From: Deltaproteobacteria bacterium
GTDB lineage: Bacteria > Desulfobacterota > BSN033 > UBA1163
Reading direction: 5' to 3'
Assembly: GCA_018333535.1 (NCBI GenBank)
Contig: JAGXTA010000049.1
Location: 1-48,556 of the forward strand
Length of the DNA stretch: 48,556 bases
The position numbers and the translations under genes were made by a program. A model generated the notes under the pieces. The model was not told the DNA's origin, did not search any database, and saw nothing but the letters and a program-made list of their open reading frames with translations. Shown in pieces: positions 6,582-11,370 of this stretch (positions within the stretch are counted from its first letter, which is position 1; each line of letters begins with the position of its first letter).

Positions 6582-7101
6582 TTTTGCACCCTCCTGATTA
6601 CATAGAAAATAGAAACGAATAGCACGAATGATAGCTAATGACACGAATAGGGTTTATTCGTGGGATTCGTTCGTAGTAGTCATTTTCATCATTCGTGGGA
6701 GCCCTTCGGGCATTATGAATTACAAATATAACGATTTAGGGTAGGAAGTCCAATATTTTTTTTGAGATTTCTGAAAAAGCCCAGAAATCTCTGTGATTAA
6801 GAGAGCAAAAGGTAATTTTTCAGAGCTCTCTATTTAGGGATTCGACATCTTCGCTTTTTGTGCTATAGTCTATTCCGATTAGACAACCCAAAAGTTATTT
6901 AAACCATCTATAATTGATGGATTCATAAAAGGTCTGAACAGACTATTTTCTGTCATTCCTGCACAAGCAGGAATCCAGTTTTTTATGTTGTTAGAATTCT
7001 CTGGATTCCCGTTTTCACGCCTGCGCGCTGAAGCGCTACGGCGCGCAAGCACGGGGATGACCACTTTTTACGATGTCATCTTAATTGATCGGGAGGGAAA
7101 G
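6582..7101. repeat. Gene-free stretch filled with intergenic repeats
   Basis: No gene is visible between the acyl-CoA ligase and rubrerythrin. The region holds several degenerate CACGAAT/ATTCGTG units (6610-6705), a small GCCC-TTC-GGGC hairpin (about 6702-6712), the hairpin repeat at 6764-6791, and a 'GTCATTCCTGC...GCAGGAATCCAG' element (about 6952-7062) of the family also found at 31345 and 36172. Confidence 0.6.
6764..6791. repeat. Perfect hairpin repeat, copy 2 (inverted)
   Basis: GAGATTTCTG (6764-6773) and CAGAAATCTC (6782-6791) flank the loop AAAAAGCC. It is the reverse complement of the 28-base hairpin at 1942-1969. Confidence 0.7.
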
Positions 7102-7794: not shown

Positions 7795-7813
7795 TGCAAG
7801 AAAAGGGATCGAC

Positions 7814-9976
7814 TTGAAGGACTTTACAAAACCAATACCGCAAGCCCTCCTGAACATCGAAGAGAAGAACCGATCGAATCTCTTCGCATGGCGCGGTCAG
7901 TTTTCGCCGCAACTGATCGAATGCCTACTGGATGCATATTGCCTGCCGGATTCCATAGTTCTCGATCCGTTTGCTGGAAGCGGAACGGTCTTGTATGAAG
8001 CAGCGGCCAGATCGTTGAGTGCATTCGGATTTGAGATAAATCCTTCGGCGTGGAGCTTCAGCAAAGTCTACGAATTCGCCAACATGAAGCCAGCCGAACG
8101 TGAAGCGGTCATTGCTGAACTCCGAAGCAACGTCGAGCATGAATTCCCAATCGTGCTTTTTTCAGAGGACAGTGTACCTGTCGAGGCCGTCGAAGAACGG
8201 GTTATCCACATAGGCCAGTCAATCAACGACGGGGCTAAAGTTCTGTGCAATGCTCTCATCGTGCTACTGGACATATTCAACAACCAGATCACAAATAGTT
8301 TTGTCCAAGGCAAATTGACGGCATTGGCAGAAATGGTCCGCAGACTGCCGTATTCGCCCAGACCGATAAAAGCAGATTTACAGGATGCGAGGGCTCTCCC
8401 TCTTGACAACCAATCCGTCGACTTTGCGGTAACATCCCCGCCGTACCTTAACGTCTTTAACTACCATCAGAATTACAGAAGATCGGTTGAGATTCTCGGC
8501 TGGGACCTGCTCCGTGTAGCCCGGTCCGAAATCGGGTCCAACCGGGCAAACCGGGGAAACCGTTTCTACACAGTCGTTCAGTACTGCATCGACATGGCTA
8601 CCGCAATGCAGGAGCTCGCCAGGGTCCTCAAACCGGGCGCTAGAGCGGTCCTCGTGGTTGGATACGAATCGAAGGTTCTTGGTGTGCCGTTCCACAACGC
8701 AGACATTGTCGAGCAAATCGCCGTGCAATCCGGGGCATTTGAGGTAATGCTTCGCCAGAACCGGGTGTTCACTAATCGTTTTGGAGATGCCATCAGGGAG
8801 GACATCCTCAACCTGCGTCGTGACGCGTACACGGCTAACTCAGATCTGCCTTCCATCGTGGGCAGGTCTATTGCGAGGAAAGCTTTGAACGCAGCGTCCA
8901 GCCGTGTTTCAGACAGCAATCGTCCCCTACTCACAGATGCTATGGGGCAGATCTATCGAATCACCGGAACCCCGATTTTCAACAGCGTGAGTTACTCCGA
9001 CTACCATACCAGAGAAAGTGTCATGATTGTAAGAGAGGAAGGTGAAGCACCCATGAGCAAAGAGAAACCCACACTGCCAACCCCGCATCTCGACAAGTTG
9101 AAGGCACTACTTGAGAACCGCCGGCTACCGGCTGTTGACAAGCCGAGAGTGGAAGTGGCCTTACAACGTTACCGAGAGTGGATAGCAAACCTTGAAGCAG
9201 TGAAAGGCGGCCAGCGGGGTGCCGTGCAACGACTAGTCGATGCGACTAATCGTTACAAGTTATCGGTTGAGTTGGACTTGATATTCGACAGTCCTGGGGA
9301 GTTCCTCTACCGCCAGAAAGGACAACTCAAGCTGGACAACACGATCCTTGAGGAGTTCTTGCCCCAGCTTTTCTACCGTGGCCTGAATTTGGCCGATGGC
9401 ACCTTTGAATTAGGACCGCGAAAGACGTTTGCTGGACTGAGTTTCAGTTCGTCTATCGCAAGCCCTGGAATCGGAGGCCGTCCCAGTCTCCGCACAAAGG
9501 ATCAGGATTTTGTTTTGGGAAAACGCCTCTACATGATGACGTCGTTTCACAAGGACTTCCACGAGGCAGAGCGGATGGAGTCATACCTTGGCTACGTATG
9601 CGCGGAGTGCAAGACGAACCTCGACAAGACGATGTTTCAGGAGGCCGTTGCAACAAGTCGCGACCTGAAAATGGCAGTGCCTTCGTCGTTATACTTCCTC
9701 GTGTGCGAGTTTCTCGACAAGACACCTGTCTCCATCACCCCAACGCACATTGATGACGTGTTGATCGTGCGCAAGGCGAAGCGGATGTCGTCGAATGTTC
9801 GACAGGAATACCGGAGCGCGAAAGAGCGAAAGGCACATCGGGGGGAATATGTCGTGTTCCTTGAGTCGGCGAAATACTACGCCGACGTGTTCCAGCGGAT
9901 GATCGACAAGATCCAGGGCCTCATTGATGTGGCAGACCCAGAAATGGATGCCGTATTGAAGAAGGGGTATTTTTGA
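7814..9976 (+). CDS. DNA methyltransferase-restriction endonuclease fusion (Bpu10I-like C-terminus)
   Basis: The 720-residue protein joins two halves. Residues 1-410 form an amino-methyltransferase, with SAM motif DPFAGSGT at 51-58 and catalytic TSPPYLN at 207-213 (SPPY type, usually N4-cytosine). The order SAM motif then catalytic motif is the reverse of beta-class enzymes such as M.PvuII. Residues 414-720 resemble, from memory, the Bpu10I endonuclease family (FDSPGEFLYRQKGQLKLDN; YVCAECKTNLDKTMFQEA). A likely PD-(D/E)xK centre is D563 or D565 plus E598-C-K600. An ATG at codon 414 (9053) follows GAGAGGAAGG, so separate translation of the endonuclease is possible. The start is TTG 7814 after AAAGGGA. 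The gene fills a cassette-like unit. Confidence 0.75.
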   Translation: MKDFTKPIPQALLNIEEKNRSNLFAWRGQFSPQLIECLLDAYCLPDSIVLDPFAGSGTVLYEAAARSLSAFGFEINPSAWSFSKVYEFANMKPAEREAVIAELRSNVEHEFPIVLFSEDSVPVEAVEERVIHIGQSINDGAKVLCNALIVLLDIFNNQITNSFVQGKLTALAEMVRRLPYSPRPIKADLQDARALPLDNQSVDFAVTSPPYLNVFNYHQNYRRSVEILGWDLLRVARSEIGSNRANRGNRFYTVVQYCIDMATAMQELARVLKPGARAVLVVGYESKVLGVPFHNADIVEQIAVQSGAFEVMLRQNRVFTNRFGDAIREDILNLRRDAYTANSDLPSIVGRSIARKALNAASSRVSDSNRPLLTDAMGQIYRITGTPIFNSVSYSDYHTRESVMIVREEGEAPMSKEKPTLPTPHLDKLKALLENRRLPAVDKPRVEVALQRYREWIANLEAVKGGQRGAVQRLVDATNRYKLSVELDLIFDSPGEFLYRQKGQLKLDNTILEEFLPQLFYRGLNLADGTFELGPRKTFAGLSFSSSIASPGIGGRPSLRTKDQDFVLGKRLYMMTSFHKDFHEAERMESYLGYVCAECKTNLDKTMFQEAVATSRDLKMAVPSSLYFLVCEFLDKTPVSITPTHIDDVLIVRKAKRMSSNVRQEYRSAKERKAHRGEYVVFLESAKYYADVFQRMIDKIQGLIDVADPEMDAVLKKGYF

Positions 9977-10109: not shown

Positions 10110-10367
10110 ATGAAAACCTCAGTCGTCCACGCACGGATTGAGCCGCAAACAAAGCAAAAGGCAGAAGGGGTCCTTCGGAAGCTTGGCCTTACTCCCACGG
10201 AGGCCATCCGTATCTTCTACAGGCAAATATCTCTCCGTGGTGGCTTGCCTTTCCCTGTCGCGATTCCGAACGAGCTTACGGCCTCTACTTTGGAGAAGAG
10301 CCGTCGTGGCGAAGACACTCAGGAATTCGAATCTTTGGAGGCAATGTTCAAGGATTGGGAGAAATGA
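10110..10367 (+). CDS. relB: RelB/DinJ family antitoxin
   Basis: The 85-residue protein begins MKTSVVHARIEPQTKQKAEG, the ribbon-helix-helix N-terminus of RelB/DinJ, followed by LGLTPTEAIRIFYRQISLRG, which is the conserved helix pair of the family. The acidic C-terminus (GEDTQEFESLEAMFKDWEK) should bind the toxin. There is no Shine-Dalgarno sequence, consistent with a leaderless message. It overlaps the toxin gene by four bases. Confidence 0.85.
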   Translation: MKTSVVHARIEPQTKQKAEGVLRKLGLTPTEAIRIFYRQISLRGGLPFPVAIPNELTASTLEKSRRGEDTQEFESLEAMFKDWEK

Positions 10368-10636
10368 AGAAGGTCTCCCAGACCAGGCAGTTTTCCCGGG
10401 ATGTCAAACGCATGCGGAAACGAGGGAAGGACCTGCACAGGCTGCAGGAGGTTGTCAAGCTTCTGGCCGAGGGCATCCCGCTTCCATCAAACTACAGAGA
10501 CCATCCGCTCACGGGACCGTGGCAGCCATCACGCGACTGCCACATTGAAGCCGACTGGATCTTGATTTATACAACCGATAAGGAATCGCTTCGGCTTGAA
10601 CGAACCGGCACGCACAGCGACCTTTTCAAGAAATGA
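10364..10636 (+). CDS. yafQ: YafQ family mRNA interferase toxin
   Basis: The 90-residue RelE-fold toxin (MKKVSQTRQFSRDVKRMRKR) has the YafQ hallmarks: DHPLTGPW, the central RDCHIEADWILIY and the C-terminal RTGTHSDLF, whose His is the catalytic residue. YafQ cleaves mRNA on the ribosome. I start at ATG 10364, which overlaps the relB stop as ATGA; a frame three codons longer exists. The pair is intact and typical of stabilising modules within cassette arrays. Confidence 0.85.
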   Translation: MKKVSQTRQFSRDVKRMRKRGKDLHRLQEVVKLLAEGIPLPSNYRDHPLTGPWQPSRDCHIEADWILIYTTDKESLRLERTGTHSDLFKK

Positions 10637-10748: not shown

Positions 10749-10949
10749 ATTCGGAAGAACGAAAAAATAGAAAGTGAGATTCAGGGTTTGTCACCATCTG
10801 AACTTGCGGTGTTTCGAAAGTGGTTTCGGGAGTTCGATGCTGAGGCATGGGATTGCCAAATAGAAGAAGATATTCAAGCAGGTAAATTAGATTTACTGGC
10901 AAATGCGGCACTCAAGGCTTTCGAACCTGGAAAGTGTAGTGAAATTTGA
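10749..10949 (+). pseudogene. Antitoxin of a decayed TA pair, ATT instead of ATG start
   Basis: An open frame of 66 codons reads RKNEKIESEIQGLSPSELAV then FRKWFREFDAEAWDCQIEED, the pattern of short antitoxins (EIxxLSPxELAxFRxWFxEFDAExWDxQIEED) found upstream of RelE/ParE-like toxins. A strong ribosome site (CAGGAGG, ending at 10740) sits eight bases before ATT at 10749, exactly where ATG is expected. No ATG, GTG or TTG lies nearby in frame. The start appears mutated, or a rare ATT start is used. Its stop overlaps the downstream toxin frame. Confidence 0.55.
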
Positions 10950-11138
10950 GACATTTAGCCTCTCCTGAATTCTGGGCATGCTATAGAGCGTTGCCGAAGT
11001 CTGTCCAGGAACTTGCCGACAAAAGCTTCGCATTGCTCAAAAATGATCCTCATCACCCGTCTTTACATTTAAAAGATCCAGCGCTTTTGGTCCGCTCGTA
11101 TCGGCTTTTCTTACCGCGTGTTGGGTGTTGATATACCA
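10946..11138 (+). pseudogene. RelE/ParE-like toxin, frameshifted and truncated
   Basis: The frame from TTG 10946 reads RHLASPEFWACYRALPKSVQ and then ELADKSFALLKNDPHHPSLH, the N-terminal half of a RelE/ParE-like toxin. At about 11075 one extra G shifts the frame. Read without it, the protein continues KIQRFWSARIGFSYRVLGVD, the conserved second half. The homology ends near 11138, where the boundary of a cassette-like unit begins. The toxin is dead through both defects. Confidence 0.6.
11120..11126 (+). other. Cassette-boundary core site GTTGGGT
   Basis: GTTGGGT fits GTTRRRY and is the exact complement of ACCCAAC, which opens the attC-like remnant at 11384. It lies inside the decayed toxin, 14 bases before the next gene. 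Confidence 0.4.
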
Positions 11139-11139
11139 T

Positions 11140-11370
11140 ATGAAAAAAGAAAAGAAAGAACAGGTATTTGCGCTTTGCGTTGAGAACAAGGACTGTGATG
11201 ATTTAGAAAAGCGTAAGATCTACAAGGTTCTGCCAGACGAGGGAGCAGAAAAAGAAGGTTACCTCAGGATAATCGATGAATCAGGTCAAGATTATCTTTA
11301 CCCCCAGTCCTTTTTCGTTCTTGTACAGTTGCCCCGCGAGGCGCAAGAAGCACTGAGAGTGGCAATCTAA
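11140..11370 (+). CDS. Small acidic protein of unknown function
   Basis: The 76-residue product (MKKEKKEQVFALCVENKDCD; then KRKIYKVLPDEGAEKEGYLR and DESGQDYLYPQSFFVLVQLP) looks like a small conserved protein occasionally seen in bacterial accessory DNA, with an SH3-like strand pattern. No function can be assigned. ATG 11140 is preferred over the longer frame at 11125, since the latter lies in toxin-derived sequence. No Shine-Dalgarno is visible. The gene sits tightly between GTTGGGT and an attC-like sequence, as in a single-gene cassette. Confidence 0.55.
   Translation: MKKEKKEQVFALCVENKDCDDLEKRKIYKVLPDEGAEKEGYLRIIDESGQDYLYPQSFFVLVQLPREAQEALRVAI

Follow-up and report, generated by a model that had tools for sequence, protein, structure and literature searches.

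The fused reading frame and its two domains

The window, i.e. the whole stretch of 48,556 nucleotides analysed here, carries on its forward strand a single open frame of 720 codons (7814–9976), which begins with a TTG codon and ends with a TGA stop (9974–9976). As the initial annotation had read it, no stop separates the methyltransferase half (M) from the endonuclease half (R), and a Pfam search of both halves returned PF01555 for the N-terminal one and PF09549 for the C-terminal one. The features discussed below are as follows, with conservation counted over 53 methyltransferase rows and 47 endonuclease rows.

7800–7808, +: GAAAAGGGA, likely ribosome site of the methyltransferase (anti-SD pairing −5.1 kcal/mol)
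7814–7816, +: TTG start codon of the methyltransferase, the first start codon of the frame
7814–9976, +: fused M–R open reading frame, 720 amino acids (ten more intact fused relatives)
7814–8998, +: methyltransferase domain, residues 1–395 (PF01555; high-confidence AlphaFold2 model)
7964–7987, +: motif I DPFAGSGT, residues 51–58 (D51, P52, G55, S56, G57 and T58 invariant, 53/53)
8432–8446, +: motif IV TSPPY, residues 207–211 (invariant in 53/53 methyltransferase rows)
8999–9082, +: predicted linker between the domains, residues 396–423 (block-mean pLDDT 54–57 over 401–420, below 50 over 410–416)
9036–9045, +: AGGAAGGTGA, putative internal ribosome site in front of the endonuclease start (anti-SD pairing −9.5 kcal/mol, the strongest among the 32 ATG codons compared in the gene)
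9053–9056, +: internal ATG(A), putative endonuclease start (the same ATGA is the M-stop/R-start overlap in several separate relatives)
9053–9976, +: Bpu10I-family endonuclease domain, 307 amino acids (PF09549, 1.8e-91; BbvCI fold, Z 26)
9323–9325, +: Q504 (endonuclease residue 91), equivalent to BbvCI R2 Gln83, a T:A contact (47/47; PMC6326814)
9506–9508, +: catalytic D565, aligned with BbvCI R2 D146 (invariant, 47/47)
9605–9613, +: catalytic E598-C-K600, aligned with BbvCI R2 E177-C-K179 (E and K invariant, 47/47)
9623–9634, +: D-K-T-M, residues 604–607, equivalent to the BbvCI major-groove recognition residues, Met for the central base (47/47; PMC6326814)
9716–9718, +: D635, equivalent to BbvCI R1 Asp204, outer C (invariant, 47/47; PMC6326814)
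9782–9784, +: R657, equivalent to BbvCI R1 Arg227, outer C (invariant, 47/47; PMC6326814)

Residues 1–413 match the amino-methyltransferases (PF01555, N6_N4_Mtase, 3e-14 in a profile search). DPFAGSGT and TSPPY correspond to the motif I (FxGxG) and motif IV [(D/N/S)PP(Y/F)] of these enzymes and stand in the order, I before IV, that had been proposed from the sequence; the non-invariant positions of motif I are Phe53, replaced by Tyr in one of the 53 rows, and the variable Ala54. In the model, a helical insert (residues 93–176) separates the two motifs; the TRD was not located, and the order would be alpha (X–I–TRD–IV) or gamma. The predicted fold is that of an unpermuted Rossmann methyltransferase, the nearest structures being tRNA m2G enzymes (Z about 18). 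The modification made by this domain is fairly likely to be N4-cytosine.

The TTG at 7814 had been called as the start codon, rightly so, since TTG is found at the homologous codon in 40 of the 49 relatives aligned at residue 1 (GTG in five and ATG in two), despite making up just 16% of the leucine codons in these genes. Most of these relatives have no ATG near their methyltransferase start. This weak start is conserved across phyla for the methyltransferase (L017–L088), while the endonuclease mostly has ATG, an unusual situation.

The C-terminal half had been assigned to the Bpu10I family on the basis of an ECK motif, an assignment that holds well: residues 504–720 match PF09549 (RE_Bpu10I) over its full length (1.2e-90), and when this half is searched alone the E-value is 1.8e-91 (profile positions 1–218 of 218; score 306 bits, cut-off 25). 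The concern that it might match no endonuclease family is removed by a match that covers the whole profile. The nearest solved relatives by sequence are the R2 (8.9e-16) and R1 (4e-7) subunits of BbvCI, and D565, E598 and K600 align with D146, E177 and K179 of BbvCI R2, which have been proven to be catalytic by mutagenesis (PMC6326814). An AlphaFold2 model of the whole 720-residue chain, built on an 89-row alignment, has a mean pLDDT of 91 and shows two confidently modelled domains separated by a stretch of low confidence. Its residues 416–720 superimpose on BbvCI R2 (PDB entry 6mag, chain A) with a Z of 26.0 and an r.m.s.d. of 3.6 over 272 aligned residues, so that the modelled domain has the BbvCI-type PD-(D/E)XK fold. 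In this model the M and R domains are joined by a flexible linker, whose lowest pLDDT values (residues 410–416) fall where the internal ATG is located.

The flanks of the related loci were searched for a conserved third gene (control protein, Vsr or second methyltransferase) and none is widely common to them: the largest common group of flanking ORFs covers nine loci, in scattered places, and the remaining groups cover at most four. As no third gene is conserved beside the M+R pair, the description of the locus as a self-contained one-gene cassette stands. Although R is often broken in this family, the window copy is intact and shows no sign of being dead; as judged from its sequence, the gene is a real, self-contained Type II restriction-modification system.

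Around the gene, a RelB antitoxin (PF04221) and YafQ toxin (PF15738) pair lies directly downstream (10110–10636), followed by two small overlapping ORFs without a Pfam match, possibly another small module (10946–11370). On the other side, a small ORF at 6879–7064, whose translation includes WIPACAGMTE, resembles the chance translation of a dispersed palindromic repeat. A second Bpu10I-family endonuclease (PF09549, 7e-26) is encoded on contig 43 of the same genome (locus L008, 7087–8861) in a separate-gene system, in which the endonuclease is followed, with a four-base overlap, by a beta-order N6_N4 methyltransferase; it adjoins a Lon-type protease gene. This PF09549 gene, with a methyltransferase of its own, is unrelated to the window system.

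Recurrent fusion and the start of the endonuclease

A scan of 84,980 species genomes yielded 241 confirmed loci. The 80 best of them were retained, and among these the nearest relative of the window reaches 73% identity at best. At the junction, the two genes of related loci either share a frame, with or without an intervening stop, or lie in different frames, which gives three classes. The initial annotation had suggested a look for homologues with the two halves as separate genes, and these were found in abundance: the tree of 62 complete M+R pairs has 51 separate members, often with a four-base ATGA overlap, and 11 fused ones (the window, L017, L018, L019, L021, L023, L024, L025, L030, L032 and L043). 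The fused members come from Planctomycetota, Sumerlaeota, Myxococcota, Cyanobacteriota, Neomarinimicrobiota and Chloroflexota. On this tree the fused/separate state has changed at least eight times, six of these changes being forced by well supported branches, and even the nearest relatives of the window are mixed (L017, L018, L019 and L032 fused, L020 and L022 separate). Judging from these loci, the fusion is natural and recurrent in the M+R family. A PF09549 search of 297 related genomes, including those of the same genus, gave no match outside the window's own genome, and plasmid and phage collections gave no endonuclease match, just distant methyltransferases.

Degraded copies also occur. 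Eight loci (L007, L027, L064, L065, L070, L078, L083 and L087) have an endonuclease disrupted by stops, frame shifts or deletions; the methyltransferase remains intact in all of them except L078, where a stop splits it too. Two fused ORFs (L053 and L074) have undergone a large internal deletion that leaves the methyltransferase with an endonuclease tail. In the viral contigs L010, L011 and L012 the methyltransferase is present and the endonuclease missing or shortened, as if phages had kept only the protecting half.

It had been conceded at the outset that a sequencing or assembly error might have removed a stop between two separate genes. Separate-gene relatives with an ATGA overlap do exist, and a single base would restore such a frame. 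Yet ten more intact fused relatives are known from independent assemblies, the nearest of which have the same tail motif in frame, and the junction contains no long homopolymer. Although these relatives come from metagenomes, their assemblies are independent and their sequences divergent, which makes it implausible that all carry the same error; with the homologues displaying repeated natural fusion, we reject this explanation as extremely improbable. Chance is likewise excluded by the profile E-values, the catalytic and recognition residues conserved in 47/47 rows and the ten further fused relatives.

The methyltransferase C-terminus in the window clade has a conserved Y-x-T-R-(D/E)-x-V-M-(M/I)-V-(K/R)-E pattern followed by a few residues. 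The window junction reads YHTRESVMIVREEGEAP-M, and the nearest fused relatives YQTRD.VMMVKE...-M or L, the frame continuing in fused relatives through a few residues past this tail into the endonuclease. Separate relatives terminate at VMMVKE...stop (for example VKEE* in L020 and VKEGKPT* with an ATGA overlap in L036); ATGA overlaps are found in L036, L037 and L040 and short gaps in L020, L022 and L034. The first homologue obtained, L007 from the same phylum (about 40–46% identity), has separate genes with a four-base ATGA overlap and a broken endonuclease. The outermost relatives (approximately 40–48% identity) had suggested that the window itself lost such an overlap, a view overturned by the closer relatives, which show that YxTRDxVMMVKE is the true end of the methyltransferase, translated in frame. 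No repeats of note were found at the junction, and promoter and terminator scans gave nothing above shuffled controls.

The internal ATG at 9053 is in frame with the TTG at 7814, in the local sequence ATGA. The ribosome site noted earlier in front of it is borne out by an anti-SD pairing that is the best of this gene. A start codon is kept at the R start in 13/13 junction-fused loci (the eleven fused tree members together with L033 and L090), namely ATG in 11, TTG in L017 and GTG in L021. Strong anti-SD pairing at this position is found not only in the window (−9.5 kcal/mol) but also in four other members of its clade, namely L017 (−7.8), L032 (−12.0), L033 (−11.6) and L019 (−13.3 kcal/mol, as measured at its first ATG). 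The site is weak in the fused L018 and L021, and absent in three complete fused cyanobacterial members, as it is in most of their separate relatives. For the window clade, this evidence supports internal initiation without proving it, because the ribosome signal could be a leftover from an ancestor whose genes were still separate not long ago. On balance the internal start is probably in use, and the gene most likely yields an M–R chain together with some free endonuclease.

Two other accounts of the products have to be weighed against this one. In the stricter of them, the gene has the 80 kDa M–R protein as its sole product and the internal ATG simply encodes a methionine like any other. The frame is indeed continuous, a synthetic Eco29kI R–M fusion holds both activities in one chain (PMC3039593) and BtgZI is a natural M-then-R chain (PMC4081073); an ordinary methionine, however, cannot explain a start codon kept in all 13 junction-fused loci, once as TTG and once as GTG, nor does it account for a window ribosome site that is the best among the ATGs of its gene. 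We consider this account unlikely, and of the earlier description as a single-chain R–M the continuous frame stands, whereas the retention of an internal start speaks against the M–R chain being the only product. The joining of the frames may instead be neutral, with two working proteins, R being made from the ATG at 9053, and the read-through M–R chain a by-product that is tolerated but serves no function. In favour of this, close relatives switch repeatedly between the fused and the separate state, the endonuclease start is retained, and the same residues are conserved whether a pair is fused or split; on the other hand, any ribosome starting at the TTG at 7814 must make the chain, which would be rare only if M translation is rare. 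Neutral joining is somewhat doubtful, if less so than the strict single chain, and it differs from our preferred explanation, an M–R chain with some free endonuclease, mainly in whether the M–R chain is active.

Subunit composition and predicted target

The window has one R gene, and so has every related locus in which R was found; where two matches occur, they are pieces of a single disrupted gene. The pair of distinct R subunits or catalytic sites that marks Type IIT enzymes is not seen in the window, and the parallel initially drawn with the separate subunits of Bpu10I was misplaced: Bpu10I and BbvCI need two different R subunits, whereas the family described here has one R gene per locus. 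Bpu10I has, moreover, two C5-methyltransferases, compared with one amino-methyltransferase in the window system. The endonuclease is probably a homodimer.

Bsu36I and BlpI are symmetric relatives of Bpu10I and BbvCI in the same endonuclease family (PMC6326814). The BbvCI authors tentatively ascribed recognition to a D-K-N-K/E-R-N-M stretch, the Met facing the unspecified central base, with Gln/Arg for the T:A pair and, in R1, Asp204 and Arg227 for the outer C of CCTN (PMC6326814). In the endonuclease studied here the DKTM stretch, Q504, D635 and R657 match this CC|TN reading and are invariant in 47/47 rows, and on these tentative residue roles CC|TNAGG (Bsu36I type) is the target that we somewhat favour for the whole family. 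The residue pattern fits a Bsu36I-like Type IIP enzyme, with cleavage predicted.

A further, independent indication comes from the methyltransferase. Its closest viral relative by structure is S4VQ82 of Pandoravirus dulcis (E-value 4e-31, 36% identity over 380 columns, the next match being at 1e-8). A study of these viruses describes N4-methylcytosine in pandoraviruses (SMRT data) and one N4-cytosine methyltransferase that targets CCTNAGG (PMC7253447). S4VQ82 may be that enzyme, a link that would fit the predicted target.

It is nevertheless quite possible that the target is another palindrome of the family, for example GC|TNAGC (BlpI-like) or the shorter CTNAG. The residue roles are tentative in PMC6326814, and the genome exhibits no avoidance that singles out CCTNAGG, its observed/expected ratio being 0.91 in 0.91 Mb of the host genome, where it is not clearly avoided, and 0.89 and 0.95 in 0.38–0.40 Mb of two genomes of the same genus without a PF09549 match; the avoidance test on these three genomes gave no usable signal. 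Against another palindrome, D635 and R657 match the R1 (CCTN) pair and not the R2 pair Lys214/Asn236, and a pandoravirus homologue of the methyltransferase exists, pandoraviruses being described as methylating CCTNAGG. The family of this M+R pair is common in cyanobacteria, and we found no report of CCTNAGG in published cyanobacterial methylomes. MstII and AocI, the classical CCTNAGG enzymes, come from cyanobacteria.

A proposed mechanism and known systems

The domains, the catalytic residues, the fusion, its recurrence and the kept start codon are read in the sequences themselves; what we infer for the window gene is that it is active, that its internal start is used, how its product oligomerizes and which site it recognizes. 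We think it likely that this is a complete one-gene Type II restriction-modification system producing an M–R chain and an internally started free endonuclease that acts as a homodimer on CC|TNAGG. Translation from the TTG at 7814 through both domains would give the M–R chain, its parts on a flexible linker. The N-terminal domain would methylate the target, probably at N4-cytosine, and the C-terminal PD-(D/E)XK domain would cut unmethylated copies. M–R chains would pair through their endonuclease domains, as expected of M–R fusions (PMC3850674), so that a paired chain may both protect and cut. Since the R start of the separate-gene relatives is kept in the window as the ATG at 9053 with its ribosome site, translationally coupled initiation at this internal site probably supplies free endonuclease as well, and an R homodimer would probably cut the Bsu36I-type palindrome. 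The fusions, of which there have been several, probably arose because the M stop and the R start overlap or abut in this family, small indels or the loss of the stop joining the frames. Both activities are predicted to reside in one M–R protein, the internal start leaving room for either outcome.

The initial annotation had taken this arrangement to be new in itself, which it is not: the fusion recurs in the family, M–R fusions are already known (PMC3039593, PMC3850674), natural ones among them, and the M-then-R order is that of BtgZI (PMC4081073). What is new is that one ORF combines this amino-methyltransferase with a Bsu36I-like endonuclease, that fusion and separation have recurred within one family, and that the internal start is retained. 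Bsu36I (CC|TNAGG) and BlpI (GC|TNAGC), as they are described, resemble the window in family, in the single R gene and in the Met at the central-base position (PMC6326814), but the window R is joined to an amino-methyltransferase in one ORF. With BbvCI and Bpu10I (Type IIT) the window R shares the fold (Z 26 to BbvCI R2), the catalytic D...E-x-K and PF09549. Both domains lie in one ORF, as in Type IIC systems, although the order M then R departs from the usual Type IIC form, in which an N-terminal endonuclease is followed by a gamma-class methyltransferase. BtgZI (Type IIC; PMC4081073) likewise has an N-terminal methyltransferase and a C-terminal endonuclease in one chain, but in its endonuclease site Q takes the place of E and it cuts some way from its target, whereas the window has a normal E-x-K and its relatives cut inside the target. 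In the synthetic RM.Eco29kI (PMC3039593), genes with an overlapping stop and start were also joined into one ORF, which demonstrates that such a fusion can retain both activities; unlike the window, it was made by mutagenesis, places R before M and has a GIY-YIG endonuclease. Natural C–REase fusions (PMC3850674) are Type II fusions too, albeit with a regulator as the partner instead of a methyltransferase. Finally, Pandoravirus dulcis S4VQ82, the nearest viral relative of the M domain, comes from a group of viruses whose methyltransferases lack an associated endonuclease (PMC7253447).

With R downstream of, and inside, the frame of M, endonuclease output would be tied to M translation, an arrangement that is safe when such a system enters a new cell. 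We would go further only tentatively: one ORF may have been kept in independent lineages as a nested gene, with a UUG-started M–R chain and free R from an internal start, the two start codons setting the balance between protection and cutting and the fused and split states being interchangeable. The conserved TTG start of the methyltransferase, set against the mostly ATG start of the endonuclease, raises a question of translation in its own right. CCTNAGG would give a concrete, testable target to a large and much cyanobacterial family for which we found none in this analysis. Arguments about how two-gene systems give rise to single-chain (Type IIC) enzymes have drawn on a fusion made in the laboratory (PMC3039593). 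The family described here offers a natural case, in which the step to a single chain has been taken repeatedly and closely related fused and split pairs are open to direct comparison.
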